Assembly: GCA_002840975.1 (NCBI GenBank)
Contig: PHDN01000010.1
Location: 62,001 to 126,000, forward strand
Direction of reading: 5' to 3'
DNA length: 64,000 nt
From: Bacteroidetes bacterium HGW-Bacteroidetes-16
GTDB taxonomy: Bacteria > Bacteroidota > Bacteroidia > Bacteroidales > F082
Shown here: piece by piece, positions 38,960 to 55,162 of the stretch
Position numbering within the stretch: position 1 is the stretch's first letter
How the letters are laid out: each line of letters starts with the position of its first letter
Translations under genes and position numbers: made by a program
Notes under the pieces: generated by a model
What the model saw: the letters and a program-made list of their open reading frames with translations, nothing else
Told to the model about the DNA's origin: nothing
Database searches by the model: none

Positions 38960-39031
38960 GGCCCCGTAGTTCAACGGATAGAATAGAAGTTTCCTAAACT
39001 TTAGATAGTGGTTCGATTCCACTCGGGGCTA
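38960..39031 (+). tRNA. tRNA-Arg, anticodon CCT
   Basis: Folds as a standard cloverleaf: acceptor GGCCCCG with CGGGGCT (first pair G-T), D arm with TTCAACGGATA, anticodon stem GAAGT/ACTTT around the loop TTCCTAA with anticodon CCT, and T arm AGTGG-TTCGATT-CCACT. Discriminator A; CCA is not encoded. It reads AGG codons. Confidence 0.93.
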
Positions 39032-39055
39032 CAACCTTTTCCTGACAATTTTACC

Positions 39056-39544: not shown

Positions 39545-42187
39545 ATGATACAGAAATTCCTTCCATTGAAAGCCCTCTTTTTTTCACTCCTTATGATCGG
39601 GTCCTCCCTGCTACAGGCGGCATGGCTTCAAAATGAGCCCATGGTTGTTTCACAGCCAAATGGGACCGAAATCCATTGCTTTGCCACCGGTGATGAATTT
39701 TATAATTGGCTGCACGATGCTGAAAATTACACCATCATTCAGAGTTCGGAGGATGGGTATTATTACTATGCTGAATTGGCAGATGGAAAGTTGAATCCCT
39801 CGCTTTACCGCGTCGGAGAAATAAACCCGGGCACTACCACTCTTGTGGCCGGAGCCAACATCAGTGGCCTGCAAATGAAACTCGTCAGAGAAAAAACAGA
39901 GGCCGACATGCAGATCACAAAAAGCAAACTGAGCGATTCGCCTACAGCCGGAACCCTCAATAACCTGGTAATTTATATCCGTTTTAGTGATCAGCCTGAA
40001 TTTACTTCCGATACCATAGAAAACTACCTTAAATTCAATAACACAGAACCGGGGGCCAACTCAGTATTCAATTATTTCCAGGAAATATCATATGACCAGC
40101 TTCAACTGCCTTCCACTTTCTATCCTGTACCACCCGACAACATTATTCTTTCTTACCAGGATGCTTTTCCCCGAAACTATTATATTCCTTATAACGCGGT
40201 TACCAACCCGGATGGATATCAAAATGGCAATCAACGTACCCAACGCGAGCATCAACTGTTGGCCAATGCCGTTACATACATCAACCTGAACTCGCCCGTG
40301 CCAACGTCACTCGATCTTGATTACAACAACGATGGCAATGTTGACAATGTTGTATTCATAATCAGAGGGGCTCCAACGGCCTGGTCCACGCTTTTGTGGC
40401 CCCACCGTTGGAGTTTGTTCAGCGAAACAGTTTTTATCAACGACAAGCGTGTGTGGGATTTCAACTTTCAATTGGAAACACACATGGCGAGCAGCGGCGT
40501 GGGTGTTCTTTGTCACGAAATGTATCACTCATTGGGTGCTCCCGACCTCTATCGTTACAACAACAACGAAATAACACCCATTGGCCCCTGGGATATTATG
40601 GCAGCCAACAACAATCCACCACAATATATGGGTGCCTTTATGAAATATAAATACGGGGGTTGGATTGAGGATATTCCATGGATTACCGAGAGCGGAACCT
40701 ACTCCATTAAACCGCTTACCAGTGCCCAAAACAATGCTTTTCGAATCCATTCACAAAATTCGTCACAAGAGTATTTTGTAGTGGAATATCGCAAAAAGGA
40801 AGGCACTTTTGAATCCACCCTGCCCAAAAGCGGACTGTTGATTTATCGCATCAATCCTGCTGCCGGCAATGGAAATGCTTCAGGACCACCTGATGAGGTT
40901 TATGTGTTTCGCCCGGATGGCTCGCTTACCAATACAGGCAACCTCAACAATGCCGTTTTTGGTACCGATTATGACCGAACCGAATTCAACGACTATACGA
41001 ACCCGAACGCATTTTTGCAGAATGGTAGCGTTGGTGGTGTTTATATTTATGATGTATCTTCAATCGGCGATTCAATGACATTTTCAGTCGATTTCCCCGG
41101 GCAAACTCAGGCAGCGTTTTCCTCCAACATAAAAGTAGCTTGCGTGGGTGAAGCCATCCAATTTTACGATCAATCAACAGGCATCCCTGACAGCTGGGAA
41201 TGGATTTTTGAACCTGCCCTAGCCACCTATTTAGAAGGGTCCGACTCCACTTCTAAAAATCCGGTCGTGTCATTTAATCAGGAAGGTGATTACACAATTA
41301 CCCTTACGGCATCGAATGACTTTGGACCAAGCACGATCCATCAAACTGATTATTTGCACATAGGGTCTCTGTATTCCTGGTTTACCGAAAACTTTGAATC
41401 AGGTGCTTTCACCAATGGTTCCTGGAGCATCGAGAATCCGGACAATGGTATTACCTGGGGTCTCCATAATGTAGGTGGCAACGGTGGCTCGCTGGCTGCC
41501 GGTATTGATTTCAGGAATTATTATTCCATTGGGCAAAGAGACCGTTTGATCTCCATGCCTTTCGATTTGAGCAACCTGAGCAACGCAAATCTTTCGTTTG
41601 AGCATGCTTATGCCCAAAACACTTCCATGGTACCCTATACCGACTCACTCATCGTTTATCTTTCAGATGATTGCGGACTAAGTTGGTTGCGTTTGGCAGC
41701 TTATGGTGAAGATGGCAACGGCAGTTTTGCCACTCATGAGCCAACCGAGGACGTCTTTTTTCCTCTTGTAGCTACCGACTGGTGCGGACAAGGATGGGGG
41801 AGTTTATGCAATAACATCAATCTCAGCAATTGGGCTGGCCAACGGGATATACGCATTGCTTTCGAAACCTATAGCTTTTATGGAAATCCTATTCTCATCG
41901 ACAATATTGAAGTGTCGCAATATGTTAGTCAGGAAGAAAATCTCTTTGCGGGCAATGATATTCAAATCTTCCCCAACCCAAGTTCAGGGAGTTTTACGAT
42001 CAGGGTGACGCAATCAGATGAACCCGTGCAGTTTAAAATGTACAATCCAATGGGTCAACTTTTATTTGAGGCGATGGTTAATAAATCTATTTCCGTTGAA
42101 AAGCAAAGTAACTGGACACCTGGAATTTATCTTTTACACTTCAATGGTAAGGAAGGCCACACCGTTAAAAAACTAATCATCGATTAA
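39545..42187 (+). CDS. M6-family metallopeptidase with PKD-like and T9SS sorting domains
   Basis: An 880-residue secreted protein: signal peptide (1-25), M6-like N-terminal region, zinc peptidase domain with HEMYHSLGAPD (H324, E325, H328 and D334 as third ligand), an Asp/Asn-rich DYNNDGNVDN (259-268) that looks like a calcium loop, a PKD-like domain (about 520-610), a jelly-roll region and a C-terminal type A T9SS tail (IFPNPSSGSFTIRV). Relatives (immune inhibitor A family) degrade host or environmental proteins. Convergent with xseA, 35 bases apart. Confidence 0.92.
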   Translation: MIQKFLPLKALFFSLLMIGSSLLQAAWLQNEPMVVSQPNGTEIHCFATGDEFYNWLHDAENYTIIQSSEDGYYYYAELADGKLNPSLYRVGEINPGTTTLVAGANISGLQMKLVREKTEADMQITKSKLSDSPTAGTLNNLVIYIRFSDQPEFTSDTIENYLKFNNTEPGANSVFNYFQEISYDQLQLPSTFYPVPPDNIILSYQDAFPRNYYIPYNAVTNPDGYQNGNQRTQREHQLLANAVTYINLNSPVPTSLDLDYNNDGNVDNVVFIIRGAPTAWSTLLWPHRWSLFSETVFINDKRVWDFNFQLETHMASSGVGVLCHEMYHSLGAPDLYRYNNNEITPIGPWDIMAANNNPPQYMGAFMKYKYGGWIEDIPWITESGTYSIKPLTSAQNNAFRIHSQNSSQEYFVVEYRKKEGTFESTLPKSGLLIYRINPAAGNGNASGPPDEVYVFRPDGSLTNTGNLNNAVFGTDYDRTEFNDYTNPNAFLQNGSVGGVYIYDVSSIGDSMTFSVDFPGQTQAAFSSNIKVACVGEAIQFYDQSTGIPDSWEWIFEPALATYLEGSDSTSKNPVVSFNQEGDYTITLTASNDFGPSTIHQTDYLHIGSLYSWFTENFESGAFTNGSWSIENPDNGITWGLHNVGGNGGSLAAGIDFRNYYSIGQRDRLISMPFDLSNLSNANLSFEHAYAQNTSMVPYTDSLIVYLSDDCGLSWLRLAAYGEDGNGSFATHEPTEDVFFPLVATDWCGQGWGSLCNNINLSNWAGQRDIRIAFETYSFYGNPILIDNIEVSQYVSQEENLFAGNDIQIFPNPSSGSFTIRVTQSDEPVQFKMYNPMGQLLFEAMVNKSISVEKQSNWTPGIYLLHFNGKEGHTVKKLIID

Positions 42188-43798: not shown

Positions 43799-44197
43799 AT
43801 GGCCAATATAGTTAACTTTTCAGATGCGGCATCCATTGGGTTGCATTGCATGATTATCCTCGCCAAATCGGACAACTCGCTCAATGCCATTCAGCTTTCT
43901 GAGCGCATCGGTAATTCAAAACACCATATCGGGAAGGTGCTTCAGCGATTGGTAAAAGACGGTTTTCTTACTTCACAACGGGGGCCCACAGGTGGGTTTG
44001 AGTTGGCCGTAAAACCGGAAGAGTGTACACTTTACGATATCTACACCTCAATCGAAGGTAAGGCCAGAAATAAAGCCTGCGATTTGATTCATAAGGTATG
44101 CCCACATGACAAATGTATCCGCGACAATGTGGTAAATAAACTCACCAACGAGTTTATTGCTTTCATGAAAAGCCAAACCCTGGCTCAATACATGTAA
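43799..44197 (+). CDS. Rrf2-family transcriptional regulator with three C-terminal cysteines
   Basis: A 132-residue winged-helix regulator of the Rrf2 family (IscR/NsrR relatives): LHCMIILAKSDNSLNAIQLS, then the recognition helix region GNSKHHIGKVLQRLVKDGFL and wing SQRGPTGGFELA. Three cysteines, C94, C101 and C106, lie where family members bind an Fe-S cluster, so a redox or Fe-S input is plausible. The spacing (C-x6-C-x4-C) differs slightly from C-x5-C-x5-C of NsrR/IscR. It stands 312 bases upstream of the PqqD/ATP-grasp gene cluster on the same strand and may control it. Confidence 0.88.
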   Translation: MANIVNFSDAASIGLHCMIILAKSDNSLNAIQLSERIGNSKHHIGKVLQRLVKDGFLTSQRGPTGGFELAVKPEECTLYDIYTSIEGKARNKACDLIHKVCPHDKCIRDNVVNKLTNEFIAFMKSQTLAQYM

Positions 44198-44509: not shown

Positions 44510-44770
44510 ATGAAAATCAATAAACATATTGCCGTAAGTGATTCGGGGTTTGTTTTCAACCCGGTTACCGGCGAATCATTTACCGCCAATCCGATGGGCA
44601 TTGAAATAATTGAAATGCTGAAAAAAGAACAAACGGTAGAGGAGATTCATGCCGCGGTTTTGGATAAGTATCACACTGATAACACCACCGTTGAAAAGGA
44701 TGTGGCCGAATTTTTTGAGCTTTTGAAAAACTTTTCTTTAATCGACCGTCATGAAACGACCGAAAATTAG
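44510..44770 (+). CDS. PqqD-like (RiPP recognition element-type) small protein
   Basis: An 86-residue PqqD-fold protein: beta strands (HIAVSDSGFVFNPVTGESF), NPMGIEIIEMLKKEQTVEEI, and a C-terminal helix VEKDVAEFFELLKNFSLID. PqqD proteins bind a leader peptide or carrier and present it to a modifying enzyme. No partner radical SAM enzyme is present; the next gene is an ATP-grasp ligase, overlapped by 20 bases, so the pair is probably translationally coupled. The peptide or carrier it would bind is not obvious in the window. Confidence 0.82.
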   Translation: MKINKHIAVSDSGFVFNPVTGESFTANPMGIEIIEMLKKEQTVEEIHAAVLDKYHTDNTTVEKDVAEFFELLKNFSLIDRHETTEN

Positions 44771-45797
44771 GATTGGCGTCACCGGTCTAAATGCCATCGA
44801 CAATCCCGGACCGGGAGTCCCTGTGATCCGTGGATTGCTCGAAGCCAAATCCTTTGATGCACACATCATCGGATTGGCCTACGAATCGCTGGAACCGGGC
44901 ATTTATATGCATGATCTGGTAAACAAAACCTACCAAATTCCCTATCCTTCGGCAGGTACCGATCAGCTTATTGACCGCCTTGAATATATACAGGAAAAAG
45001 AACACCTGGACGTCATCATCCCCAACTTCGACGCAGAATTGTATTCATTTATCAAGCTGTCGCCCAGGTTGAAAAAAATGGGTATCCATACTTTTTTGCC
45101 TACCATGGAACAGTTTGACGAAAGGTTGAAGGTTAACCTGCCGGAGTTTGGCGAGAAGTACGGAATCCATGTCCCAAAAAGCGAAGTGATTTACCAGGTA
45201 AGCGACCATAAAAAACACATGGAGAAACTGGGATGGCCCGTGGTTGTGAAAGGTAAATACTACGATGCCGGCATCGCATACAACGCCGATCAGCTGACCG
45301 GCTATTTCAATAAGATCTCTGCCAAATGGGGCTTGCCCATTATCTTGCAGGAATTTGCCCATGGAACAGAATACAATGTAACCGGCCTCGGTGACGGACA
45401 TGGCAACACCATTTCGGCGGTGCCCATGCGCAAGCAATACATCACCGACAAAGGCAAAGCCTGGGGAGGTATCGCTATCACCGATGAAAAACTGCTCAAC
45501 CTGACCCGTAAATTTATCAAAGAAACCAAGTGGCGCGGGGCTTTTGAGCTGGAGCTGATGAAAAATAAAAAGGGTCAGTTTTATCTGCTTGAAATCAATC
45601 CGCGTATTCCGGCCTGGGTGTACCTGGCGGTTGGTGTGGGTCAAAATATACCCGAAGCCTACGTAAACCTGGCCATGGGAAAAGAGGTGGATGCTTTTGA
45701 AACCTTTGAGTCGGGTAAAATGTTTGTGCGCTATTCCTGGGATATGATCGTCAACTTGTCGGATTTTGAAAAGATTTCGACCCTCGGAGAACTATAG
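44751..45797 (+). CDS. ATP-grasp ligase
   Basis: A 348-residue single-chain ATP-grasp protein: an N-terminal pre-ATP-grasp Rossmann-like region (IRIGVTGLNAIDNPGPGVPV, 1-120), ATP-binding lysines around K167/K169 in VVVKGKYYDAG, the hinge ILQEFAHGTEYNV with E201, and the metal-binding LLEINPRIPAW with E281 and N283. It should join a carboxylate to an amine or thiol using ATP via an acyl-phosphate. The acceptor and donor are unknown. It overlaps the PqqD-like gene by 20 bases and precedes a PLP decarboxylase by 59 bases. Confidence 0.85.
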   Translation: MKRPKIRIGVTGLNAIDNPGPGVPVIRGLLEAKSFDAHIIGLAYESLEPGIYMHDLVNKTYQIPYPSAGTDQLIDRLEYIQEKEHLDVIIPNFDAELYSFIKLSPRLKKMGIHTFLPTMEQFDERLKVNLPEFGEKYGIHVPKSEVIYQVSDHKKHMEKLGWPVVVKGKYYDAGIAYNADQLTGYFNKISAKWGLPIILQEFAHGTEYNVTGLGDGHGNTISAVPMRKQYITDKGKAWGGIAITDEKLLNLTRKFIKETKWRGAFELELMKNKKGQFYLLEINPRIPAWVYLAVGVGQNIPEAYVNLAMGKEVDAFETFESGKMFVRYSWDMIVNLSDFEKISTLGEL

Positions 45798-45810
45798 TAC
45801 CACACAGCCA

Positions 45811-45818
45811 TATGTTTG
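45811..45818 (+). promoter_or_regulatory. Possible internal promoter (TATGTTTG) before the decarboxylase gene
   Basis: Exact TAnnTTTG match, 38 bases before the ATG at 45857; no good -33 element. Confidence 0.35.
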
Positions 45819-45856
45819 TTTAGAAAAATAATATAGAATATAAAGATTGAAATAAA

Positions 45857-47215
45857 ATGGAAAAATTAAGATACGAACGGCCATTGATCAAGCGCCTGGA
45901 TGGAAATATGCCCAACAAATTTGGGATGAGATCCGATTATACACCCAAGACCCACATCGAGGGAGTAGCAGTGAAGGATTTAATTAAAAAATACGGGTCA
46001 CCCCTTTTTGTCATCTCCGAACGTCAGATTCGTGAAAACATCCGCAAGGCACGCAAAGCATTCGAAACCAGGTATCCACGCGTGCAGTTTGCCTGGTCCT
46101 ACAAGACCAATTACCTGGATGCCGTATGCCGTACCTTTCATCAGGAAGGTTCCTGGGCCGAAGTGGTTTCAGGTTTTGAATACGACAAAGCCCTGCATAA
46201 TGGGGTTGAAGGCAGTAAAATTATCTTTAACGGACCTGATAAAAGCAGTGCCGATCTGGAGAAAGCCATCAACAACAACAGCCTGATCCACATCGATCAC
46301 CTGGATGAACTCTATAAAATTCAGGAATTATCCAAAAAACAAAATAAAACTGTCCGCGTAGCTATCCGGGTGAATATGGACACCGGTATTTACCCCATGT
46401 GGGACCGCTTTGGGTTTAACTACGAAAACGGACAAGCCTGGACTGCCATCAACAAGATCATGCAGTCGGAAACACTGGAACTGGTTGGTTTGCATACCCA
46501 CATTGGTACTTTTATGCTGTCACCCAATGCATACGCAACAGCGGCTTACAAACTGGCCGAACTGGCCAGAAACATCAGACTGAAGTACAACCATGAAATC
46601 AACTACATCGACATGGGTGGTGGTTTTGCATCGCACAACACCTTAAAAGGCGCCTATTTGCCCGGTACCGACATCAGTCCGTCCATCAACGAATTTGCCG
46701 AAGCCATTACCACGGCGCTCATCAACAGCGATTTTCCTCAAAACAAACTGCCGCTGCTCATCCTGGAAACAGGCCGTGCCCTCATCGACGATACCGCCTT
46801 TTTGCTTGGCTCGGTGATTACCAACAAAAGATTGTCGGATGGACGCAGAAGCACCATTCTGGATATTGGAGTGAATATTTTGTTTACCTCCTTTTGGTAC
46901 GACCATAAAATTACACCTGCCCAGCCATTTACTCAATATACCGAGGATACCGTGCTGTATGGCCCTTTGTGTATGAACATTGATGTGGTACGCGAAAACA
47001 TCAACCTGCCTTTGCTTAACAATGGCGAACACCTGGTGGTGCACAATGTAGGAGCCTACAATATGACCCAATGGATGCAGTTTATAACCCTGAGACCCAG
47101 GGTGGTGATGATCGACATGGAACATAAGGTGCATGTGATACGCGACAACGAAACCCTGAAAAGTTTACTCGACCTAGAACATGTTCCGGATCATTTGACT
47201 AAATTTGATCTATAA
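45857..47215 (+). CDS. Fold-III PLP decarboxylase of the DAP/ornithine/arginine group
   Basis: A 452-residue alanine-racemase-fold protein with an extra about 35-residue N-terminus. Residues expected of the group are present: PLP lysine K83 in WSYKTNYL, H213/H215 in GLHTHIGT, the phosphate loop MGGGFA (253-258), E304/R307 in ILETGRALI, and C372 with Y401 (GPLCMNIDVV, GAYNMTQ). It probably decarboxylates a basic or diamino acid or a modified peptide end. The sequence is too far from lysA or speA to assign the substrate, and the gene context (ATP-grasp, PqqD-like) is unlike lysine biosynthesis. Confidence 0.83.
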   Translation: MEKLRYERPLIKRLDGNMPNKFGMRSDYTPKTHIEGVAVKDLIKKYGSPLFVISERQIRENIRKARKAFETRYPRVQFAWSYKTNYLDAVCRTFHQEGSWAEVVSGFEYDKALHNGVEGSKIIFNGPDKSSADLEKAINNNSLIHIDHLDELYKIQELSKKQNKTVRVAIRVNMDTGIYPMWDRFGFNYENGQAWTAINKIMQSETLELVGLHTHIGTFMLSPNAYATAAYKLAELARNIRLKYNHEINYIDMGGGFASHNTLKGAYLPGTDISPSINEFAEAITTALINSDFPQNKLPLLILETGRALIDDTAFLLGSVITNKRLSDGRRSTILDIGVNILFTSFWYDHKITPAQPFTQYTEDTVLYGPLCMNIDVVRENINLPLLNNGEHLVVHNVGAYNMTQWMQFITLRPRVVMIDMEHKVHVIRDNETLKSLLDLEHVPDHLTKFDL

Positions 47216-47239
47216 TCAGCAGAAATCCAATCAACCCTG

Positions 47240-49423
47240 ATGAATCCATTATCAAAAAAGACCGCCAACCAGGTTACTGACAGTTTACTGAATAGTTACG
47301 GACAGGTGTTTTTTTCCAGGAACAAGGTGTTTGCCGTCATTCTGATTGTGGTCTCGTTTTTTGATATGTATACAGGAATTGCAGGTCTGGCGGCGGTATT
47401 TACGGCCAACGGAGCTGCTTTGCTGATGGGGATGAACCGCGAGAAAATCAGGACCGGAGCCTATGGGTTTAATGCCCTGATGGTGGGGCTGGGAATTGGC
47501 ATCAACTACCAGCCTACAGCCGAGTTTTATTTGATTCTGGTTTCCATTTCGCTGCTCACCCTGTTTATCACCATTGGCCTTGAGGGCGTGTTGGGTAAAT
47601 ATGGCCTGCCCTATTTAAGCATCCCGTTTTTATTCGGTATCTGGTTTGTGATTATTGCCACCAAAGGTTATTCGGAACTCACCGTGAGCGAGCGTGGCGT
47701 TTATTACCTCAACGATATGTACGCCATTGGTGGAATGCCCATGGTACGATTATACGAATGGTTCAACAATCTGGGAATGCCCGAAACGCTTCGGATTTAT
47801 TTTAAATCGCTGAGTGCCATCTTGTTTCAGTACCATTTGTTTGCCGGCTTGCTGCTGGCTGTGGGATTGATCTATTATTCGCGCATTGCCTTTTTAATGT
47901 CGCTGATTGGATTTTATTCAGCATTTGCATTTTACAAAATCATTGGTGCCAACATCAGCGAACTGAATTACAGTTACATCGGGTTTAACTACATCCTTAC
48001 AGCCATCGCGGTTGGTGGATTTTTTATTGTTCCCTCAAAAAGGGCTACCATGTGGGTCATCTTTCTCACTCCATTGGTGGCCATCACCCTCAACGGAACC
48101 GCTTTTGTGTTCGTCAATTTTGGACTTTCGGTGTATTCGCTGCCCTTTAACCTGATTGTCATCTTGTTTTTGTATGTGTTAAAGTTCAGGGAGCGGCATC
48201 TCGACAAGCTTACTCCTGTGCTGATACCATTGTATTCGCCCGAAAAAAACGCTTACGGTCATACCAGTTATATGAAGCGTTTTGGAACTCTGCCCTGGTT
48301 TTCGGTTAAATTACCCTTTTGGGGAGAGTGGAAGATTACCCAGTCGCATGATGGTGAAATTACCCACCGTGAAGAATGGCGTCATGCCTTTGATTTTGAG
48401 ATTGTGGATGATGAAGGCAAGACCTATGAAGGTGAAGGTCTGCATGCTGGGGATTATTACTGTTTTGGCAAGCCGGTTACGGCACCCGCTGATGGAGTTG
48501 TAGAAGAGATTGAAAATGAGGTGGCCGACAACGCGGTTGGCGATATCAACATGGAGAAAAACTGGGGAAACAGCATTGTAATCAAGCATGGCGATCATTT
48601 CTATTCGCAGGTCAGCCACCTGAAAAAGGGAAGCCTGACTATAGCCGTGGGGCAAACTGTGAAACAAGGTGAAAAAATAGCCCTTTGCGGGAATTCAGGC
48701 CGGTCGCCCTATCCGCATCTGCACCTACAATTTCAGTCCACACCCTATATTGGATCGCACACCCTGAGCTATCCATTTTCATCGTATGTGGTGAGGGAAA
48801 ACGGGAATTTTGAATACAACACAGCCCGGATACCAAACAATAAACAGTTGGTATCCAATGCCGTTCCGGATATCACCTTACAACATGCCTTTCATTTGAT
48901 TCCTGGTGCAACGCTGGAGTTTAAAGTAAATGAGGAAATTTTTGTTTGGGAGGTAGAGTCGGATCCCTATAACAACACCTATATCCAATGTACCAACACA
49001 GGATCACGGGCCTGGTTTAAAAGGGGTGTAGACGTATTTTACTTTACCGGATACGAGGGCAAAAAAGATACGCTGTTGTATTATTTCTATCTGGCCGCCT
49101 TTAAGGTTTCCATCTCATTTTATAAAAAACTGGAGCTTTCAGATCAATATCCGCTAACCATCTTCCCCAATCGCTTGATACAGGGAATACAGGATTTTGC
49201 GATCCCATTTGTTAAATTTCTGCGCGCCGATTACCTGCTGGTTTACGATCAACTCGACGATCAAACGACCAATCGAAAGGTCGTTCTGAGGTCTATAGCT
49301 ACTTTTGGAGTTGGGCAAAACATCCGGCAACAATACCAATTCAAAATGGAATGTAACACACGCGGACTGGTTCGCTTTGAGGTAAATACAGGTAAAAACG
49401 TGATCATCGCTGAAAAGCAATAG
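47240..49423 (+). CDS. Urea-transporter domain fused to an M23 peptidase domain
   Basis: A 727-residue protein. Residues about 1-320 form a UT-family membrane domain with some ten hydrophobic segments (FSRNKVFAVILIVVSFFDMY, GIAGLAAVFTANGAALLMG). Residues about 345-520 are an M23 peptidase domain whose zinc motifs look intact (H-A-F-D in WRHAFDFEIV and PYPHLHLQF). The last about 200 residues are not recognised. The transporter normally conducts urea-sized solutes; the peptidase would face the periplasm and cut or bind peptidoglycan stems. Starts 24 bases after the decarboxylase stop and precedes an outer-membrane protein by 13 bases, so all appear to be one operon. Confidence 0.85.
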   Translation: MNPLSKKTANQVTDSLLNSYGQVFFSRNKVFAVILIVVSFFDMYTGIAGLAAVFTANGAALLMGMNREKIRTGAYGFNALMVGLGIGINYQPTAEFYLILVSISLLTLFITIGLEGVLGKYGLPYLSIPFLFGIWFVIIATKGYSELTVSERGVYYLNDMYAIGGMPMVRLYEWFNNLGMPETLRIYFKSLSAILFQYHLFAGLLLAVGLIYYSRIAFLMSLIGFYSAFAFYKIIGANISELNYSYIGFNYILTAIAVGGFFIVPSKRATMWVIFLTPLVAITLNGTAFVFVNFGLSVYSLPFNLIVILFLYVLKFRERHLDKLTPVLIPLYSPEKNAYGHTSYMKRFGTLPWFSVKLPFWGEWKITQSHDGEITHREEWRHAFDFEIVDDEGKTYEGEGLHAGDYYCFGKPVTAPADGVVEEIENEVADNAVGDINMEKNWGNSIVIKHGDHFYSQVSHLKKGSLTIAVGQTVKQGEKIALCGNSGRSPYPHLHLQFQSTPYIGSHTLSYPFSSYVVRENGNFEYNTARIPNNKQLVSNAVPDITLQHAFHLIPGATLEFKVNEEIFVWEVESDPYNNTYIQCTNTGSRAWFKRGVDVFYFTGYEGKKDTLLYYFYLAAFKVSISFYKKLELSDQYPLTIFPNRLIQGIQDFAIPFVKFLRADYLLVYDQLDDQTTNRKVVLRSIATFGVGQNIRQQYQFKMECNTRGLVRFEVNTGKNVIIAEKQ

Positions 49424-49436
49424 CAACCAATTATTT

Positions 49437-50924
49437 ATGACGAAACGCATTTTGTTTAAAGCCTTTCTTCTGGTGATCGTTTCAGGACTTCTGCCTGTGA
49501 AATTAAAAGCTGAAAATAATTTCAGAACCTACGATTCAATTACCTATCAGGCCTACATCAATCAAAATTGGCCATTGGTTCTTCAGGTCGGGAATGAGGC
49601 CATCAGTCATCATTTTGATTATTACTATCTGCGGATGCGCATGGGTGCAGCGGCCTATGAATTAAACTTTCTGCCACTGGCCATAGTACATTATGAAAAA
49701 GCACTTGAATTCAATAACGGCGATCCCACGGCTCAAAAAATACTCTACCATGTATTTCTGTCGATGGGTAAAAATCCACAGGCTTACCGGCTGACGAAAA
49801 ATTTTAATGCTCAGGTAAGCGCCGGTCTCAACTACAAGATGAAGTTTGTCGAAGCCGCTTATGCTGGAGGAGGGGCTTCTTTTTCAAACAATTTCGATCG
49901 CAACAGCCATACCCGCCTCATTGGAAACGATAGTTTGATGAGTTCTCAGGTACTTTTTGGAGATAAGCAATTCTATTATGGAGGCATTCAGTTTAATCTT
50001 TCGCCTTCCCTTGGTTTTTACCTCGAGTACGATCATTTGTCTGTAGATAAGCGTACCCGGTTTTCCTATGTTGAGGATGAGCTTAAAGTGCGTTCAATAC
50101 GACACGAATCTTGGGGTTATCAGGTTGAATACAATACGGCACAACATGTTGTCGAAAAAGAGTTCAACAACAAGCTTCAACAGGATCAACTGTATGCCAA
50201 CCTGAGACTGCAACTTGAAAATGGCTGGTCGGTTTCGCTTTTTAGCAACGGGCTTTTTATTAAAACAGATCGCATTTCTGTAGATCCTTATGAAGGTACT
50301 TTAACAGATACGCTTTCTTTTATGCCTGATATCAATGAGGTACAATACTACAAACAAAGCTACTTATCTTACCGTTTTAAACAAATGGATACCACTTTCT
50401 TCAACTATGTGGCCGGTTTTCATGTGACGATAGACTACAATCAGATGTCTTTTGGATTAACAGGGATTACTTCCAACATAAACGATTCGAAACAAAAACA
50501 AGTGAGTCTGGATTTGTTTTATTATTTGGGTAGAAGCGTGAATTTTTATGGGATAACCGAAGGCACCTGGATTTATCAAAACTGGTATGGTTACAAAACC
50601 AACCGATTTATTTTCAGGCAGGTACTGGGACACAAAATCTATAAAACATCGTGGCTTGAGGTGGAATATACCCATGGGGACCTCAACAATGCCAGCATCA
50701 AAAGCGGGATGATCGTTTTTAATCATGCCGACAATACCGACTACCGGATGGAAATCATGTTTCATGCAATGTTTGGACAACATCTGGATTTATCCATACG
50801 TTATCAGTATGTTTCCTTTGCAGGGAATTATTATGAAACCTCGGAAACTTATCCGGGATATATATCAAAACCGTTTGAATATCAGACACAAAATATTATT
50901 GGAGGAATAAAATGGACATTTTAA
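49437..50924 (+). CDS. Outer-membrane protein: N-terminal TPR region plus beta-barrel
   Basis: A 495-residue exported protein with a signal peptide (1-26), a short TPR-type helical part (about 30-125, for example AIVHYEKALEFNNGDPTAQ), and then alternating amphipathic strands (130-495) ending in the aromatic C-terminal IGGIKWTF expected of a barrel substrate of the BAM complex. Such a layout puts a periplasmic TPR arm on an outer-membrane barrel. Ends within the start of the next gene, so coupled translation is likely. No specific family was recognised. Confidence 0.75.
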   Translation: MTKRILFKAFLLVIVSGLLPVKLKAENNFRTYDSITYQAYINQNWPLVLQVGNEAISHHFDYYYLRMRMGAAAYELNFLPLAIVHYEKALEFNNGDPTAQKILYHVFLSMGKNPQAYRLTKNFNAQVSAGLNYKMKFVEAAYAGGGASFSNNFDRNSHTRLIGNDSLMSSQVLFGDKQFYYGGIQFNLSPSLGFYLEYDHLSVDKRTRFSYVEDELKVRSIRHESWGYQVEYNTAQHVVEKEFNNKLQQDQLYANLRLQLENGWSVSLFSNGLFIKTDRISVDPYEGTLTDTLSFMPDINEVQYYKQSYLSYRFKQMDTTFFNYVAGFHVTIDYNQMSFGLTGITSNINDSKQKQVSLDLFYYLGRSVNFYGITEGTWIYQNWYGYKTNRFIFRQVLGHKIYKTSWLEVEYTHGDLNNASIKSGMIVFNHADNTDYRMEIMFHAMFGQHLDLSIRYQYVSFAGNYYETSETYPGYISKPFEYQTQNIIGGIKWTF

Positions 50925-51529
50925 GAAGTATTGTTATCAGTTTGCTGATCATTGTTGGAAGCACCAGTTATGCACAGGACAACGTAACGTTGATGAATGC
51001 GTTTGCAAAATCGTACGAGCTGGAAAACAACGGCAGTTACGAAGAGGCTATAACCACGTTAAAAGCTGTTTATCAGGAAGATTCATACGAAATCAATCTC
51101 CGGTTGGGCTGGTTACATTATCTTTCGGGCTTGTTTAGTGAGTCGATGCCCTACTACCAGAAGTGTATTTATTTGCGTCCCATGTCCATTGAGGCCCGGT
51201 TGGGAATAGTGTTGCCGGCTTCTTCTATGGGAAACTGGACCCAGGTAGAAAAGCAATACAATGATATCCTGACCATTGATCCTGAAAACAGCCAGGCCAA
51301 CTTCCGTCTGGGCATGATCTATTATGGCCGCGAGGATTACACCAAAGCGCTGTCGGTTTTCGAAAAATTGTTAAACCGGTATCCATTCGATTACGACATC
51401 ATCATGATGACAGCGTGGACGCAACTCCGCAAAAGCGAAACCCGCAAAGCCAAAATCCTGTTTAACAAGGCATTGCTCAACCGACCCAACGACTCATCGG
51501 CGTTGGAAGGGTTAAAATTGATTAAATAA
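50912..51529 (+). CDS. Exported TPR protein
   Basis: A 205-residue protein with a signal peptide (IVISLLIIVGSTSYAQ) and about four TPR-like units (SYEEAITTLKAVYQEDSYEI, LRPMSIEARLGIVLPASSMG, DYTKALSVFEKLLNRYPFDY, RKAKILFNKALLNRPNDSSA). It starts inside the last codons of the barrel gene and is preceded by a strong Shine-Dalgarno-like GGAGGA, unusual in this genome type, suggesting re-initiation after the barrel gene. Last member of the cluster; no terminator was found behind it. Confidence 0.8.
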   Translation: MDILRSIVISLLIIVGSTSYAQDNVTLMNAFAKSYELENNGSYEEAITTLKAVYQEDSYEINLRLGWLHYLSGLFSESMPYYQKCIYLRPMSIEARLGIVLPASSMGNWTQVEKQYNDILTIDPENSQANFRLGMIYYGREDYTKALSVFEKLLNRYPFDYDIIMMTAWTQLRKSETRKAKILFNKALLNRPNDSSALEGLKLIK

Positions 51530-51644: not shown

Positions 51645-52379
51645 ATGAAAATTACTACACTTCCTTTTGCCGGATCGGTGTTACCTAAGGATATTAACGA
51701 CAAAACCGTTGTGGTAATTGATGTGCTCAGGGCTACCTCCACCATGATTACGGCGTTGATGCATGGTGCAAAGCAGATAATTCCTGTAGTTGATATTAAA
51801 AGTGCCTTTAATTTAAAAAAACAATTTAGCCCCGGAAAGGTTTTCCTATGCGGGGAGCGCGATGCAAGGATCATCCCGGGCTTTGATTTAGGAAACTCCC
51901 CTTTGGAATATACTACCGAAAAGGTTCACGGCAAAACACTGATCATTTCGACTACCAATGGCACAAAAACCATTGGAGCTGTCGGGCAGGCAAAAAAATT
52001 GTTGCTGGCTTCTTTTATTAATGCCGGAGCCATTGCAAAGCAGTTCCAAAATCAACAGGAAATGGTGCTGTTCTGTTCAGGAACCAACGGGTATTTTTCG
52101 ATAGACGATGCCTTTTGTGCCGGTTATATTGCTTCCCGGATCGAAGAAACCACGGAGATCGAAGCTTGCGACCTGACGCGAACCCTTATCCTCGCATGGG
52201 AAAATTCCATCGAACAATACAGCTCCATCATAAAAAATTGTTTTCATGGAAAGTACTTGATTTCGAAAGGATTTGAGCAAGATGTGGATTATTGCCTGCA
52301 AATAAACCTGACGGAGATGATTCCCGTTTATGATACCAGATCGCAGTCAATAAGTATTCTTCATCAAGCAACATATTGA
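51645..52379 (+). CDS. comB: 2-phosphosulfolactate phosphatase-like protein (ComB family)
   Basis: A 244-residue ComB-type protein: VVVIDVLRATSTMITALMHG near the N-terminus, FLCGERDARIIPGFDLGNSP, ISTTNGTKTI, and VLFCSGTNGYFSIDDAFCAG. The family removes phosphate from 2-phosphosulfolactate in coenzyme M synthesis and exists in many bacteria where the physiological product is sulfolactate or unknown. No other com gene is in the window. The stop overlaps the TTG where the next open frame begins. Confidence 0.88.
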   Translation: MKITTLPFAGSVLPKDINDKTVVVIDVLRATSTMITALMHGAKQIIPVVDIKSAFNLKKQFSPGKVFLCGERDARIIPGFDLGNSPLEYTTEKVHGKTLIISTTNGTKTIGAVGQAKKLLLASFINAGAIAKQFQNQQEMVLFCSGTNGYFSIDDAFCAGYIASRIEETTEIEACDLTRTLILAWENSIEQYSSIIKNCFHGKYLISKGFEQDVDYCLQINLTEMIPVYDTRSQSISILHQATY

Positions 52380-52426
52380 ACAATTTTTATGTCTTCATGA
52401 TACGAACCAAATATTATCCTGATAAA

Positions 52427-55162
52427 ATGAAAAAAAATATTCTTCTAGTCTTCGTTTCTTTACTCGTAATAGCCGCATTTGGTGGGTATTATTTAATAGA
52501 TTTCAAACAAAATAAACGACAAGCATACGAAAAAGCGATTCTCGAAAAAGCGCGACTTTTGCCGCGGGCTCCAAAAGAAAAGAAAAAAGGAGTTAAATCA
52601 CCCGATCAACCTGATATGGCTGCCTTCCAGGAATACATCATGACCATGGATCCTGAAACCGGATTGGTTCCGAAAAAATCGCTGTATCCATCATATCTGG
52701 CTTCCAAGGACATGGAACGAAACAAATCGGCAGGTGATTATACGCCTCCCGTTGAATGGGAAGGGACACAGGCGATGATGGGCGGACGAACCCGCATGAT
52801 CATGTTCGATCCCAACGATCCCACCCATGAAAAAGTGTGGGCCGGAGGCGTTACAGGAGGTTTATGGTTTAACTATGAAATAAGCGATGTCAGCTCGTGG
52901 TGGGAGCCTGTGGACGATTTCTGGAGCAGTCTGGCCATCAGTTCCATGGCTTATGATCCCAATAATACGGAAACATTTTACGTGGGTACGGGTGAGGCGC
53001 AAACAGCACGTACAATTTACAGAGAATCATCCGGGGTTGGAGTTGGCATCTTTAAAAGCACCGATGCCGGTGAAACCTGGGAATTGTTGTTCTCTACTGA
53101 TCAATTCGATTATATCACCGATATTGCCGTACGCGATGAAAACGGTACCAGTGTAGTATATGCCTGTGTGGCTTCCGGGTTTTATCATGGCGAAGATTTT
53201 CAAAGCCATCCCTCCGATGGTCTTTACAGGTCAACAAATGGAGGAGAAACATGGACACAAGTCCTTCCCGATATTGCAGGTTCACCGGGCAAACCCTACA
53301 CTCCTTCGGATATCGAAATTGGCCCCGATGGCAGGATATTTATCGGAACCATGGAAAACCTTGAGTTAAAAGGCGGGGCCACCATTTTATTTTCCGATAG
53401 CGGATTACCCGATAGCTGGACAGTGTATGGGGATTATAACGTAACTATATCAAATGAAGCACAATACAATATTCCGGCACGGACCATTGTGGCCGTTTCG
53501 CCATCAAATCCCGACAGGGTATACGCACAATTTGCCGCCGGGTATACAAATGGTTTTATCTATTACAGGGGCCGTTATATGGTAAAATCGCTGGATGGCG
53601 GTTCGAGTTGGGAGTGGGTGAACCCACCTGCCGATGACTGGTCGACCCTGGCCTGGCATGCTTTTGTACTTCAAGTGGATCCGGTTAACCCTGAGATTGT
53701 TTATACCGGAGGGCTTGATTTGTGGCGATCGGCCAACGGGGGAACGATCTGGAAGCACATAAGCGACTGGTCGTTAATGTACTATGGAGGTGGAGACGAT
53801 TATGCCCATGCCGATCAACACAACATCCAGTTTCAGCCCGGATCGTATACAAAAGCGCTGTTTTCAACAGATGGAGGGATATTCCTCACCAACACGGCCA
53901 ACTATTCTTCGCCTGTATTTATTGAGCGGAGCCAGGGCTATAACACCTTGCAGTTTTATTCATGTGCCATCCACCCTCTGGCCAATTTTACCCAATACAT
54001 TGGTGGCCTGCAAGACAACGGAACACTTAAATACAACGGAAGCCCACTTGACATTAACGACATGATTGACGGGGGAGATGGGGCTTTTTGCTTCTGGGAC
54101 GAAGATTCCCCCAATGTTTATATCACTTCGGTATATTACAATAGTTATTCTACCTGGCGCAATAACAACAAAGTAGGTTATTTTGGTGGTGGTTCAGGTA
54201 CCTTTATCAGTCCGGCCGACTATAATTCATATACCAACACCTTGTATTCAAATGCCACCGATTTCTTTGGCGGATATGCCAATAAACTATTGAGGGCCAC
54301 AGGAATTCCAAATGAATTAAGTAGTCAAATAATTGATATTGGTACCAGTTCAAGTGTTGCCTTTTCGGCTGTAACGAGCAGTAAATACAGTCCTGAAGGA
54401 TCAACCAATTTATTTGTTGGTACGCAAGCAGGTTTGTTGTATAAGATCATCAATGCAAGCGACATACCCCAGGCTGTTGAGATTGGATCTACATCATTCC
54501 CCACTGCCAATATTTCATGTATTGCCCTGGGTGCTTCTGAAGATGTTTTGTTGGTAACATTCTCCAACTACGGTGTTTCGTCGGTATGGCTGACGATGGA
54601 TGGAGGAGCCACATGGCAGGAAAAAGAATCCAATCTTCCCGACATGCCGATTCGTTGGGCGTTGTTCCATCCCGAAAACGATGGCCAGGTCATGCTGGCC
54701 ACCGAATTGGGTATTTGGGCCACCAATACCCTGACCGAACCTGAAACAGAGTGGTCTCCTGCCAACCTGGGTATGGGGAATGTGCGGGTTGATATGCTGA
54801 AATTGCGTGCCGCTGACAATGTGGTGCTGGCTGCCAGTCATGGAAGGGGTTTATTTACTGCGCCTTATGAAAAAGATCTATATGTTTCCATAAACGATTT
54901 TCAATCTCACCAATCGCTATTAACACTCTATCCCAATCCCGCGAGTACAGTTGTTACTTTAAAATGGCCATCGAACAGCCAAACAACTGCCATCATCAGG
55001 GTAACTGATTTAAGTGGAAAAACTATTTTTCAAGAGCAGATACAGGTAAGCGAGTTAAACACACAATTTACTATTGATGTTACCAGGTATACACAAGGGA
55101 CTTACCTGGTGAGCCTCACACTAGATAAAGAGGTGTATACTGAAAAGCTGGTGATTAACTAA
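52427..55162 (+). CDS. Secreted BNR/sortilin-like beta-propeller protein with T9SS sorting domain
   Basis: A 911-residue protein with an N-terminal signal anchor (MKKNILLVFVSLLVIAAFGG), a basic linker, and a propeller with repeated BNR/Asp-box-like units (GIFKSTDAGETWELLFS, GLYRSTNGGETWTQVLPD, MVKSLDGGSSWEWVNPP, LWRSANGGTIWKHISDW, VWLTMDGGATWQEKESN). The end is a type A T9SS domain (LYPNPASTVVTLKW to TEKLVIN). Such proteins are often exo-enzymes or adhesins, but no catalytic assignment is possible. The longer frame starting at TTG 52376 overlaps comB; ATG 52427 starts the signal segment. Followed by a terminator. Confidence 0.88.
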   Translation: MKKNILLVFVSLLVIAAFGGYYLIDFKQNKRQAYEKAILEKARLLPRAPKEKKKGVKSPDQPDMAAFQEYIMTMDPETGLVPKKSLYPSYLASKDMERNKSAGDYTPPVEWEGTQAMMGGRTRMIMFDPNDPTHEKVWAGGVTGGLWFNYEISDVSSWWEPVDDFWSSLAISSMAYDPNNTETFYVGTGEAQTARTIYRESSGVGVGIFKSTDAGETWELLFSTDQFDYITDIAVRDENGTSVVYACVASGFYHGEDFQSHPSDGLYRSTNGGETWTQVLPDIAGSPGKPYTPSDIEIGPDGRIFIGTMENLELKGGATILFSDSGLPDSWTVYGDYNVTISNEAQYNIPARTIVAVSPSNPDRVYAQFAAGYTNGFIYYRGRYMVKSLDGGSSWEWVNPPADDWSTLAWHAFVLQVDPVNPEIVYTGGLDLWRSANGGTIWKHISDWSLMYYGGGDDYAHADQHNIQFQPGSYTKALFSTDGGIFLTNTANYSSPVFIERSQGYNTLQFYSCAIHPLANFTQYIGGLQDNGTLKYNGSPLDINDMIDGGDGAFCFWDEDSPNVYITSVYYNSYSTWRNNNKVGYFGGGSGTFISPADYNSYTNTLYSNATDFFGGYANKLLRATGIPNELSSQIIDIGTSSSVAFSAVTSSKYSPEGSTNLFVGTQAGLLYKIINASDIPQAVEIGSTSFPTANISCIALGASEDVLLVTFSNYGVSSVWLTMDGGATWQEKESNLPDMPIRWALFHPENDGQVMLATELGIWATNTLTEPETEWSPANLGMGNVRVDMLKLRAADNVVLAASHGRGLFTAPYEKDLYVSINDFQSHQSLLTLYPNPASTVVTLKWPSNSQTTAIIRVTDLSGKTIFQEQIQVSELNTQFTIDVTRYTQGTYLVSLTLDKEVYTEKLVIN

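Follow-up and report, generated by a model that had tools for sequence, protein, structure and literature searches.

A conserved six-gene cassette of Bacteroidota combines an ATP-grasp ligase, a PLP decarboxylase and a urea transporter-like channel fused to an M23 domain

In the LysW pathway, an ATP-grasp enzyme loads a small protein, chemistry takes place on the bound group and a metallopeptidase provides the release. Channels of the urea transporter (UT) family are known for small planar solutes, and in the characterised members both termini are cytosolic. Decarboxylation of amino acids in a conjugated state, with citrate, a peptidyl nucleotide or a carrier protein as the partner, is carried out by the group of FigC, SbnH, AcsE, MccE and BtrK, which shares an ancestor with diaminopimelate (DAP) decarboxylase (PMC7857480, in the portion consulted). 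Here we describe a cassette of six genes, named A to F, that brings relatives of such enzymes and channels together. It lies within a 64,000-nucleotide stretch (the window) of contig PHDN01000010.1 of Bacteroidetes bacterium HGW-Bacteroidetes-16, whose genome (G000; G, C and L numbers are our handles for genomes, contigs and loci) comprises 3.94 Mb in 46 contigs and is 96.6% complete. We conclude that the six genes are one conserved system, inherited nearly all-or-none in the order Bacteroidales and recurring in other classes of Bacteroidota.

The cassette spans window positions 44510-51529 and consists of six same-strand open reading frames (ORFs), all open, with spacings of -20, 59, 24, 13 and -13 nucleotides. 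They encode a protein resembling PqqD and RiPP recognition elements (A; RRE, with RiPP standing for ribosomally synthesised and post-translationally modified peptide), an ATP-grasp ligase (B), an alanine-racemase (AR)-fold pyridoxal phosphate (PLP) decarboxylase (C), a UT-like channel fused to an M23 domain (D), an exported tetratricopeptide repeat (TPR) protein with a probable outer-membrane barrel (E) and a second exported TPR protein (F; Table 1). A preliminary description of this DNA had given the six genes, their strand, place and spacings, all of which were exact when the ORFs were re-checked, and its family calls held up in comparison with Pfam and NCBIfam, the barrel of E apart.

Among 198 genomes of Bacteroidales, in which genes B, C, D and F were counted, we found B in 85, C in 86, D in 87 and F in 83, and all four were present together in 79 of the 90 genomes that hold any of them. 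C accompanied B in 85/85 B genomes, and one extra genome carried C without B. Matches were accepted at E ≤ 1e-20 for B and F, at E ≤ 1e-60 for D, with two weak contig-edge fragments (G022, G154) added by hand, and at an identity of at least 53% for C, where the next matches reach at most 31% and contig-edge fragments were counted. The pairwise hypergeometric P values for B, C, D and F ranged from 2e-41 to 3e-56, under an assumption of independent genomes that is not fully true.

Gene order is kept as well. The order A-B-C-D-E-F was present in 44 of 60 fetched neighbourhoods, a selected subset of the D matches to which one genome (G067) contributes two; the remaining ones showed ABCDF (4), ABCDE (3), CDEF (1), DEF (4), DE (1) or D (3), several of them at contig ends. 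Incomplete sets in the order-wide counts were BCD (G009, G046, G084, G170, G177), BC (G157), CD (G187), DF (G016, G191) and F only (G056, G104). Several of these correspond to contig ends or less complete genomes, and G016, which is 96% complete, has no B or C and carries D at a contig end, may represent a genuine loss. The preliminary description had proposed a joint system, with scattered genes and a lack of co-occurrence as the contrary case. The co-occurrence and the kept order support the joint system, and the contrary case fails, as the genes are co-retained even where they lie apart, which in these draft genomes means on different contigs, each fragment adjoined by other genes. The separate pieces are AB, C, D and F in G057; AB, C and DEF in G026; ABC and DEF in G090; BC and DF in G192; and ABC, D and F in G053. 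In G026, D-E-F (L061:3201-8135) is preceded by genes encoding a polysaccharide deacetylase, a GNAT protein and a 392-residue protein without a Pfam match, with AB and C elsewhere.

The overlap of E and F measures exactly 13 nucleotides in 39 of 46 loci, A and B overlap in 27/39 and D and E in 35/47, and these conserved overlaps suggest translational coupling. The six proteins have diverged in a correlated manner (r 0.45 to 0.83 over 33 sequence sets); in the four protein pairs that were permuted (r 0.52-0.83) the value was reached by 0/500 permutations, and shared descent would also produce such a correlation. The cassette boundaries are A and F, because the genes that flank it in the window, encoding an Rrf2 regulator and a 2-phosphosulfolactate phosphatase, are rarely near D elsewhere (within 8 kb in 1/60 and 0/60 fetched neighbourhoods, respectively). 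The near-identical relatives L002-L004 keep these flanks, with the phosphatase in 3/3 and Rrf2 in 2/3, and D is 97-98% identical to D of the metagenome-assembled genomes GWF2_41_31, CG18 (Bacteroidetes bacterium) and Bacteroidales bacterium C24_maxbin.026. In a survey of the phylum, B was matched at E ≤ 1e-40 in 30 of 345 genomes, the window genome included; five of the other 29 belong to the same class and 24 to other classes. Full ABCDEF was found in 7 of the 20 loci fetched from these 29 outside the order (three in the same class, four in other classes). Other loci there have D-F followed by a protein of 274-309 residues resembling E without the TPR arm; only two of these proteins match the E profile (16 and 12.5 bits), and the five scanned had no Pfam match.

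As to function, we tentatively propose, as a possibility somewhat short of even, that the cassette is a conserved Bacteroidota pathway whose product, a small compound of amine or amide type, is made in the cytosol and then moved through the envelope. The RRE protein A would present a peptide, a protein tail or another carrier to the ligase B, which would join an amino acid to this carrier by an amide bond, and C would decarboxylate the amino acid in its conjugated state. The M23 domain of D, on the cytosolic face, would then cleave the amide and release the product at the mouth of the UT-like channel of the same protein, from where F and the TPR-barrel protein E would take it across the periplasm and outer membrane. 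Stated in full, as a carrier-based system that ligates and then decarboxylates, and in which a cytosolic M23 amidase fused to a UT-type pore discharges the product into its own channel and on to the TPR and barrel proteins, the proposal is more doubtful.

The top solved relative of C is the N-citrylornithine decarboxylase 7kh2 (FslC/FigC; 2.4e-63), followed by DAP decarboxylase (2.9e-38), and C also matches the BtrK structures 7ru7 and 2j66. The PLP lysine K83 and residues H213, C372 and D376 are invariant in 52/52 sequences. By its match scores, with this nearest solved relative and an intact PLP site, C appears to fit the AR-fold decarboxylases of conjugated amino acids. Its score against the NCBIfam N-citrylornithine decarboxylase model, 247.7 bits, lies below the cut-off of 500. 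In the FigC model, R290 and Y331 contact the amide oxygen through water, and H357 and R387 contact citrate (PMC7857480, in the portion consulted). C keeps the first pair as R307 and Y348 and, by our residue mapping, has I375 and Q405 (each 52/52) in place of the second. Because the former are kept and the citrate contacts replaced, the substrate of C is perhaps an amide-linked amino acid, not a citryl one.

C could alternatively be the DAP decarboxylase of the lysine pathway, placed among unrelated neighbours, which we regard as highly improbable. It scores 227.6 bits against TIGR01048 (lysA), no gene of the window genome exceeds the lysA threshold (its only other AR-fold match, G000:C32:46560-47756, reaches 97 bits), and separate LysA genes that do exceed it are rarer in genomes with the cassette (24/85) than in the others (59/113). 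However, C itself stays below the cut-off of 297.9 bits, 24 cassette genomes hold both genes, and C is linked near-perfectly with B, D and F. In addition, its motif GPLCMNID, present in 51/51 loci in the order and 18/20 outside it (the other two read C-M-Q-I-D), is without the Glu of the C-E-S-x-D motif of DAP enzymes, a residue whose role there we presume. We therefore rejected LysA, on the grounds of the motif, the score below the cut-off and the LysA genes carried separately, even though the window genome offers no LysA gene above the threshold.

The family profile of A has its closest solved match in TbiB1 (5v1u; 1.3e-12), which we take to be a lasso-peptide RRE, and TfuB1 is also near. 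A is the sole PqqD match in the window genome, and it appears by sequence to have the leader-binding feature of an RRE (PqqD 4.2e-12, with TbiB1 as top solved match). Its C-terminus is not conserved and has no conserved terminal Glu. The B profile matches carbamoyl phosphate synthetase 1a9x and 2pn1, placing B with CarB/PRK12767-like proteins, and residues E281, N283 and R285 are invariant in 52/52 sequences. As the residues of B, C and D to which we presumptively assign catalytic roles are invariant, the three enzymes (B, C and the M23 part of D) do not look degenerate.

An RRE-like protein adjoining an ATP-grasp ligase is a hallmark of RiPP systems, and with a protease-type domain also present, the cassette could be read as graspetide-like: A would bind a leader, B would close or extend the peptide, C would decarboxylate a residue, the cytosolic M23 domain would remove the leader and D-E-F would export the product. 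We consider this unlikely. B matches CarB-like ATP-grasps, the cassette contains no ABC exporter, and passage of a peptide through a UT pore would be unlikely. No small same-strand ORF recurred in more than two loci in the 900 nucleotides upstream of A (40 stretches, 221 ORFs) or the 600 nucleotides downstream of F (54 stretches, 174 ORFs), a search outside which the cassette gaps and the rest of the genome fall; for the regions up- and downstream of the cassette, this bears out the earlier remark that no precursor gene is evident. The main text of a graspetide survey (PMC8939145), in the portion consulted, has no mention of "urea transporter" or "M23", and the portion consulted of the main text of a Bacteroidales RiPP survey (PMC10352776) has none of "urea" or "M23".

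The UT domain of D scores 184.5 bits against a cut-off of 25. Among 61 sequences, the pore positions are kept at F25 in 60, F77 in 57, F196 in 61, F249 in 59, and N78 and N250 in 61 each. The position of dvUT E187 (we presume the dvUT numbering used here) is Ala in 54/61, and those of T130 and T294 are Ser in 56/61 and 57/61, respectively; the loops of D and the pore mapping were assigned by hand. The channel could in principle serve uptake, with E, F and the UT domain admitting a small amide or urea-like solute, the cytosolic M23 domain hydrolysing the amide, and A-B-C using the product. The UT mechanism is channel-like, which leaves direction unfixed by sequence (PMC10541013, in the portion consulted), and the M23 domain probably faces the cytosol; however, a ligase and a decarboxylase would suit production better, and we judge uptake to be improbable. 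Urea itself is an unlikely solute, given the Ala at the E187 position and the distribution of urease, which at E < 1e-40 was found in 6 of the 198 genomes and in none of the 85 B genomes (chance P 0.033, weak alone). Six further genomes gave short urease matches near 1e-4, and two of these are B genomes (G057, G138). Three genomes that do not carry the cassette (G139, G078, G133) have a plain UT gene at most about 7 kb from urease. Urea uptake for nitrogen was rejected because, in the 198 genomes, urease never occurs with B at the stricter threshold.

UT proteins have 10 transmembrane helices (PMC10541013, in the portion consulted), and therefore both ends of the membrane domain of D lie on one side of the membrane. 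The family-averaged loop charges of D are K+R 11.2 versus D+E 3.4 inside and 4.2 versus 7.8 outside. At L126 (genome G202, a single contig), two genes overlapping by 4 nucleotides encode UT and M23 individually, and the 393-residue M23 protein has no signal peptide, its charged start running into the conserved domain. The strongest M23 relatives in a plasmid collection (106-116 bits) come from Thermus (34.5% identity) and from Haloferax, Haladaptatus, Haloplanus and Halocatena (37-39%). By eye, the four that were translated have hydrophobic N-terminal segments, then R-Y-R, then a domain with LPF-G-W ... RYA(Y/H)DF ... HLH, and to our knowledge haloarchaea have no murein. Taking UT topology, loop charges, the signal-less M23 gene and the haloarchaeal relatives together, the M23 domain of D is probably cytosolic and not a cell-wall enzyme. 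Weaker M23 matches outside the cassette in the order (at most 89 bits), such as the stand-alone proteins of G082, G186 and G110 (79-89 bits), count against this. Its residues H376, D385, H460, H493 and H495 are invariant (61/61), with an H-D spacing that differs from the classic HxxxD, and presumably these His and Asp residues have metal-binding or catalytic roles. In Haladaptatus, nitrile hydratase genes start ~1 kb downstream of the M23 relative.

These observations bear on a role in envelope or peptidoglycan remodelling, in which A-B-C would supply an amine, and a periplasmic M23 domain would use it to act on the cell wall together with E and F. Many of the NCBIfam M23 models that D matches describe cell-wall enzymes, such as MepM and ShyA, and E and F are exported. 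The UT fold and charge topology, the separate M23 protein without a signal peptide and the relatives in haloarchaea nevertheless oppose it, as they do the earlier suggestion that the M23 domain acts on peptidoglycan from the periplasm. Of the peptide, uptake and remodelling alternatives, remodelling fits the topology evidence least, and we consider it very unlikely.

A hydrophobic, export-like N-terminus, judged by an 11-residue hydropathy rule (by eye for the haloarchaeal and Thermus proteins), was found in 43/47 E and 51/53 F proteins and in 0/39 A, 0/51 C and 6/51 B proteins. A, B, C and probably the M23 domain would share the cytosol, D would span the inner membrane, and E and F would be exported, in support of the earlier arrangement of the parts from cytoplasm to outer membrane. 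E is fast evolving (mean pairwise identity 23% over 33 sequence sets), and alone it has no family match over cut-off and matches no barrel family. Its family profile matches TPR proteins at about residues 65-120, with TPR_1 in 14/25 members, and its C-terminal residue is F in 28/47 and L in 11/47. The TPR arm previously ascribed to E is thus upheld through the family profile, whereas its barrel, for which the window protein has no barrel-family match, is a probable assignment from sequence.

Several points weigh against the proposed cytosolic production and outward passage of a small amine or amide. Two loci beyond the order have a reduced D: in L143 the UT lacks the M23 part, and in L144 the C-terminal domain is missing. 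Equivalents of R307 and Y348 are present in DAP decarboxylase too and are therefore no proof that the substrate is conjugated. The searched flanks yielded no recurring small ORF as a carrier or precursor, and the tail of A is not conserved, so no acceptor for B stands out. The small planar solute range of UT channels would limit the product. AlphaFold models of D and E, from four near-identical sequences each, have a mean pLDDT of 28.4 and 27.7 and leave the barrel and the M23 geometry unsupported. Finally, sequence fixes no direction of transport, and we only infer this direction along with the order of the steps, the carrier and the identity of the product.

Other genes recur near the cassette. 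A family of exported proteins of about 265 residues with a type IX secretion tail (Pfam tail matches) lies in or beside the cassette in 11/61 loci. Five members precede A, three lie between B and C and three follow F, one of them a 67-residue fragment. The N-terminal part of this family was matched at E ≤ 1e-10 in 25 genomes of the order, 24 of which are B genomes; P is 3e-9, or 3.7e-6 when only the 102 genomes with some match are considered. The cut-off, which includes a match start in the first 60 residues, was chosen after viewing the matches listed. Weaker full-length matches occur without B in G069 (3e-9) and G056 (7e-8) and with B in G039 (6e-7), and the member in the window genome is unlinked to the cassette (G000:C42:163271-164029; L095:8224-9036). 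An AraC-type regulator is upstream in 14/61 loci, with an HMA-like N-terminus below the Pfam cut-off in 2/3 scanned, and an HGSNAT-like membrane acyltransferase is near the cassette in 9/61 loci of the order. We set aside inserted genes seen in one or two loci each, namely IF-2B-like (L035, L042), PIN (L039), IVP (L094), a sigma factor (L054), a histidine kinase (L052, with a relative in L068) and an aminotransferase (L052), and treated IspG, after F in 9/61 loci, as housekeeping. Promoter and terminator scans gave no signal beyond chance level. None of the six proteins matched a PADLOC defence model at 1e-3, and an anti-phage defence system was rejected on that basis; a plasmid-borne cassette was likewise rejected, as B found no match in the plasmid collection. 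A tRNA-Arg (CCT) gene lies at 38960-39032 of the window, ~5.5 kb upstream of the cassette, and large ORFs at 39545-42187 and 52376-55162 look, from translation only, as if they encode exported proteins whose C-terminal tails are of the type IX kind.

Table 1. Coordinates of the cassette, its domains, its flanking genes and related features (plain numbers are window positions)
Feature	Position	Strand	Basis
A: PqqD/RRE-like, 86 aa	44510-44770	+	Pfam PqqD 4.2e-12
B: ATP-grasp ligase, CarB-like, 348 aa	44751-45797	+	Pfam ATPgrasp_Ter 2.5e-11
C: alanine-racemase-fold PLP decarboxylase, 452 aa	45857-47215	+	Pfam Orn_Arg_deC_N 3e-33, Orn_DAP_Arg_deC 5.5e-11
D: UT-like channel/M23 fusion with unassigned C-terminal domain, 727 aa	47240-49423	+	Pfam UT 3.2e-54, Peptidase_M23 1.2e-16
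D, UT-like membrane domain, residues 14-314	47279-48181	+	Pfam UT 3.2e-54
D, M23 domain, about residues 356-505, probably cytosolic	48305-48754	+	Pfam M23 match at residues 410-499; invariant His/Asp
E: exported TPR and probable outer-membrane beta-barrel, 495 aa	49437-50924	+	Family profile, TPR_1 matches, N-terminus, C-terminal residue
F: exported TPR protein, 205 aa	50912-51529	+	Pfam TPR_2 6.8e-16 and other TPR families
Rrf2 regulator, flanking gene	43799-44197		
2-phosphosulfolactate phosphatase, flanking gene	51645-52379		
Haloarchaeal/Thermus M23 relatives	L147:3755-4618, L148:3803-4762, L149:2704-3630, L150:2566-3639		M23 facing the cytosol, by eye
Stand-alone M23 relatives	G082:C125:36573-37109, G186:C38:178168-178707, G110:C19:9641-10123		
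Loci with type IX secretion-tail family	L043, L048, L052, L059, L064, L068, L078, L079, L080, L082, L090		
HGSNAT-like acyltransferase, inside cassette	L066:9905-10948, L077:7050-8087		
HGSNAT-like acyltransferase, directly after cassette	L137:2925-4010		

We found no description of the cassette in the open-access literature searched, from which accounts without open access could be missing, and within that literature its earlier designation as undescribed stands. The absence is set against a ligase present in 85 and a UT-M23 protein in 87 of the 198 genomes (about 43%). UT and M23 are textbook families that appear here in non-textbook roles, which, if true, would extend beyond urea transport and cell-wall cleavage, and the cassette hints at an unknown small molecule made or handled by many Bacteroidota.

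Compared with known systems, the cassette resembles the citryl-amino-acid pathways (FigA/FigC of rhizoferrin, SbnH of staphyloferrin B, AcsE of achromobactin) in pairing a ligation with subsequent AR-fold PLP decarboxylation of the conjugate. Those pathways use a non-ribosomal peptide synthetase-independent siderophore (NIS) synthetase where the cassette has an ATP-grasp enzyme, and C has replaced the citrate contacts of FigC; the cassette adds an RRE protein, a UT channel and an M23 domain, and contains no major facilitator superfamily (MFS) exporter. With the PF03253 urea transporters dvUT and UT-B, D shares the domain fold and the pore Phe and Asn residues, and it differs by E187 to A, T130/T294 to S, the fused M23 domain and the lack of urease in B genomes. 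Graspetides and other RiPPs with PqqD/RRE proteins likewise place an RRE-like protein beside an ATP-grasp enzyme, whereas here no precursor was found at the locus, no RiPP exporter is in the cassette and B is CarB/PRK12767-like. In butirosin, BtrJ is presumably the ATP-grasp ligase. In the BtrI/BtrJ/BtrK system, as in the step proposed for C, an AR-fold enzyme acts as decarboxylase on an amino acid bound to a carrier (PMC7857480, in the portion consulted). In contrast to butirosin, A is RRE-like and not an acyl carrier protein, the cassette has no aminoglycoside genes, and membrane and envelope parts are added. The LysW pathway follows a logic like that of the proposed steps, but the cassette has no LysW-like protein, the tail of A is without a conserved terminal Glu, and the hydrolase is an M23 domain fused to a channel. 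Each known pathway tested thus either departs from the cassette in at least one defining feature or is missing most of its components, and no kind that we can name holds this combination; we therefore conclude that the cassette, whose mechanism is putative, is a real and conserved system of a kind that, as far as we have searched, was not described before.

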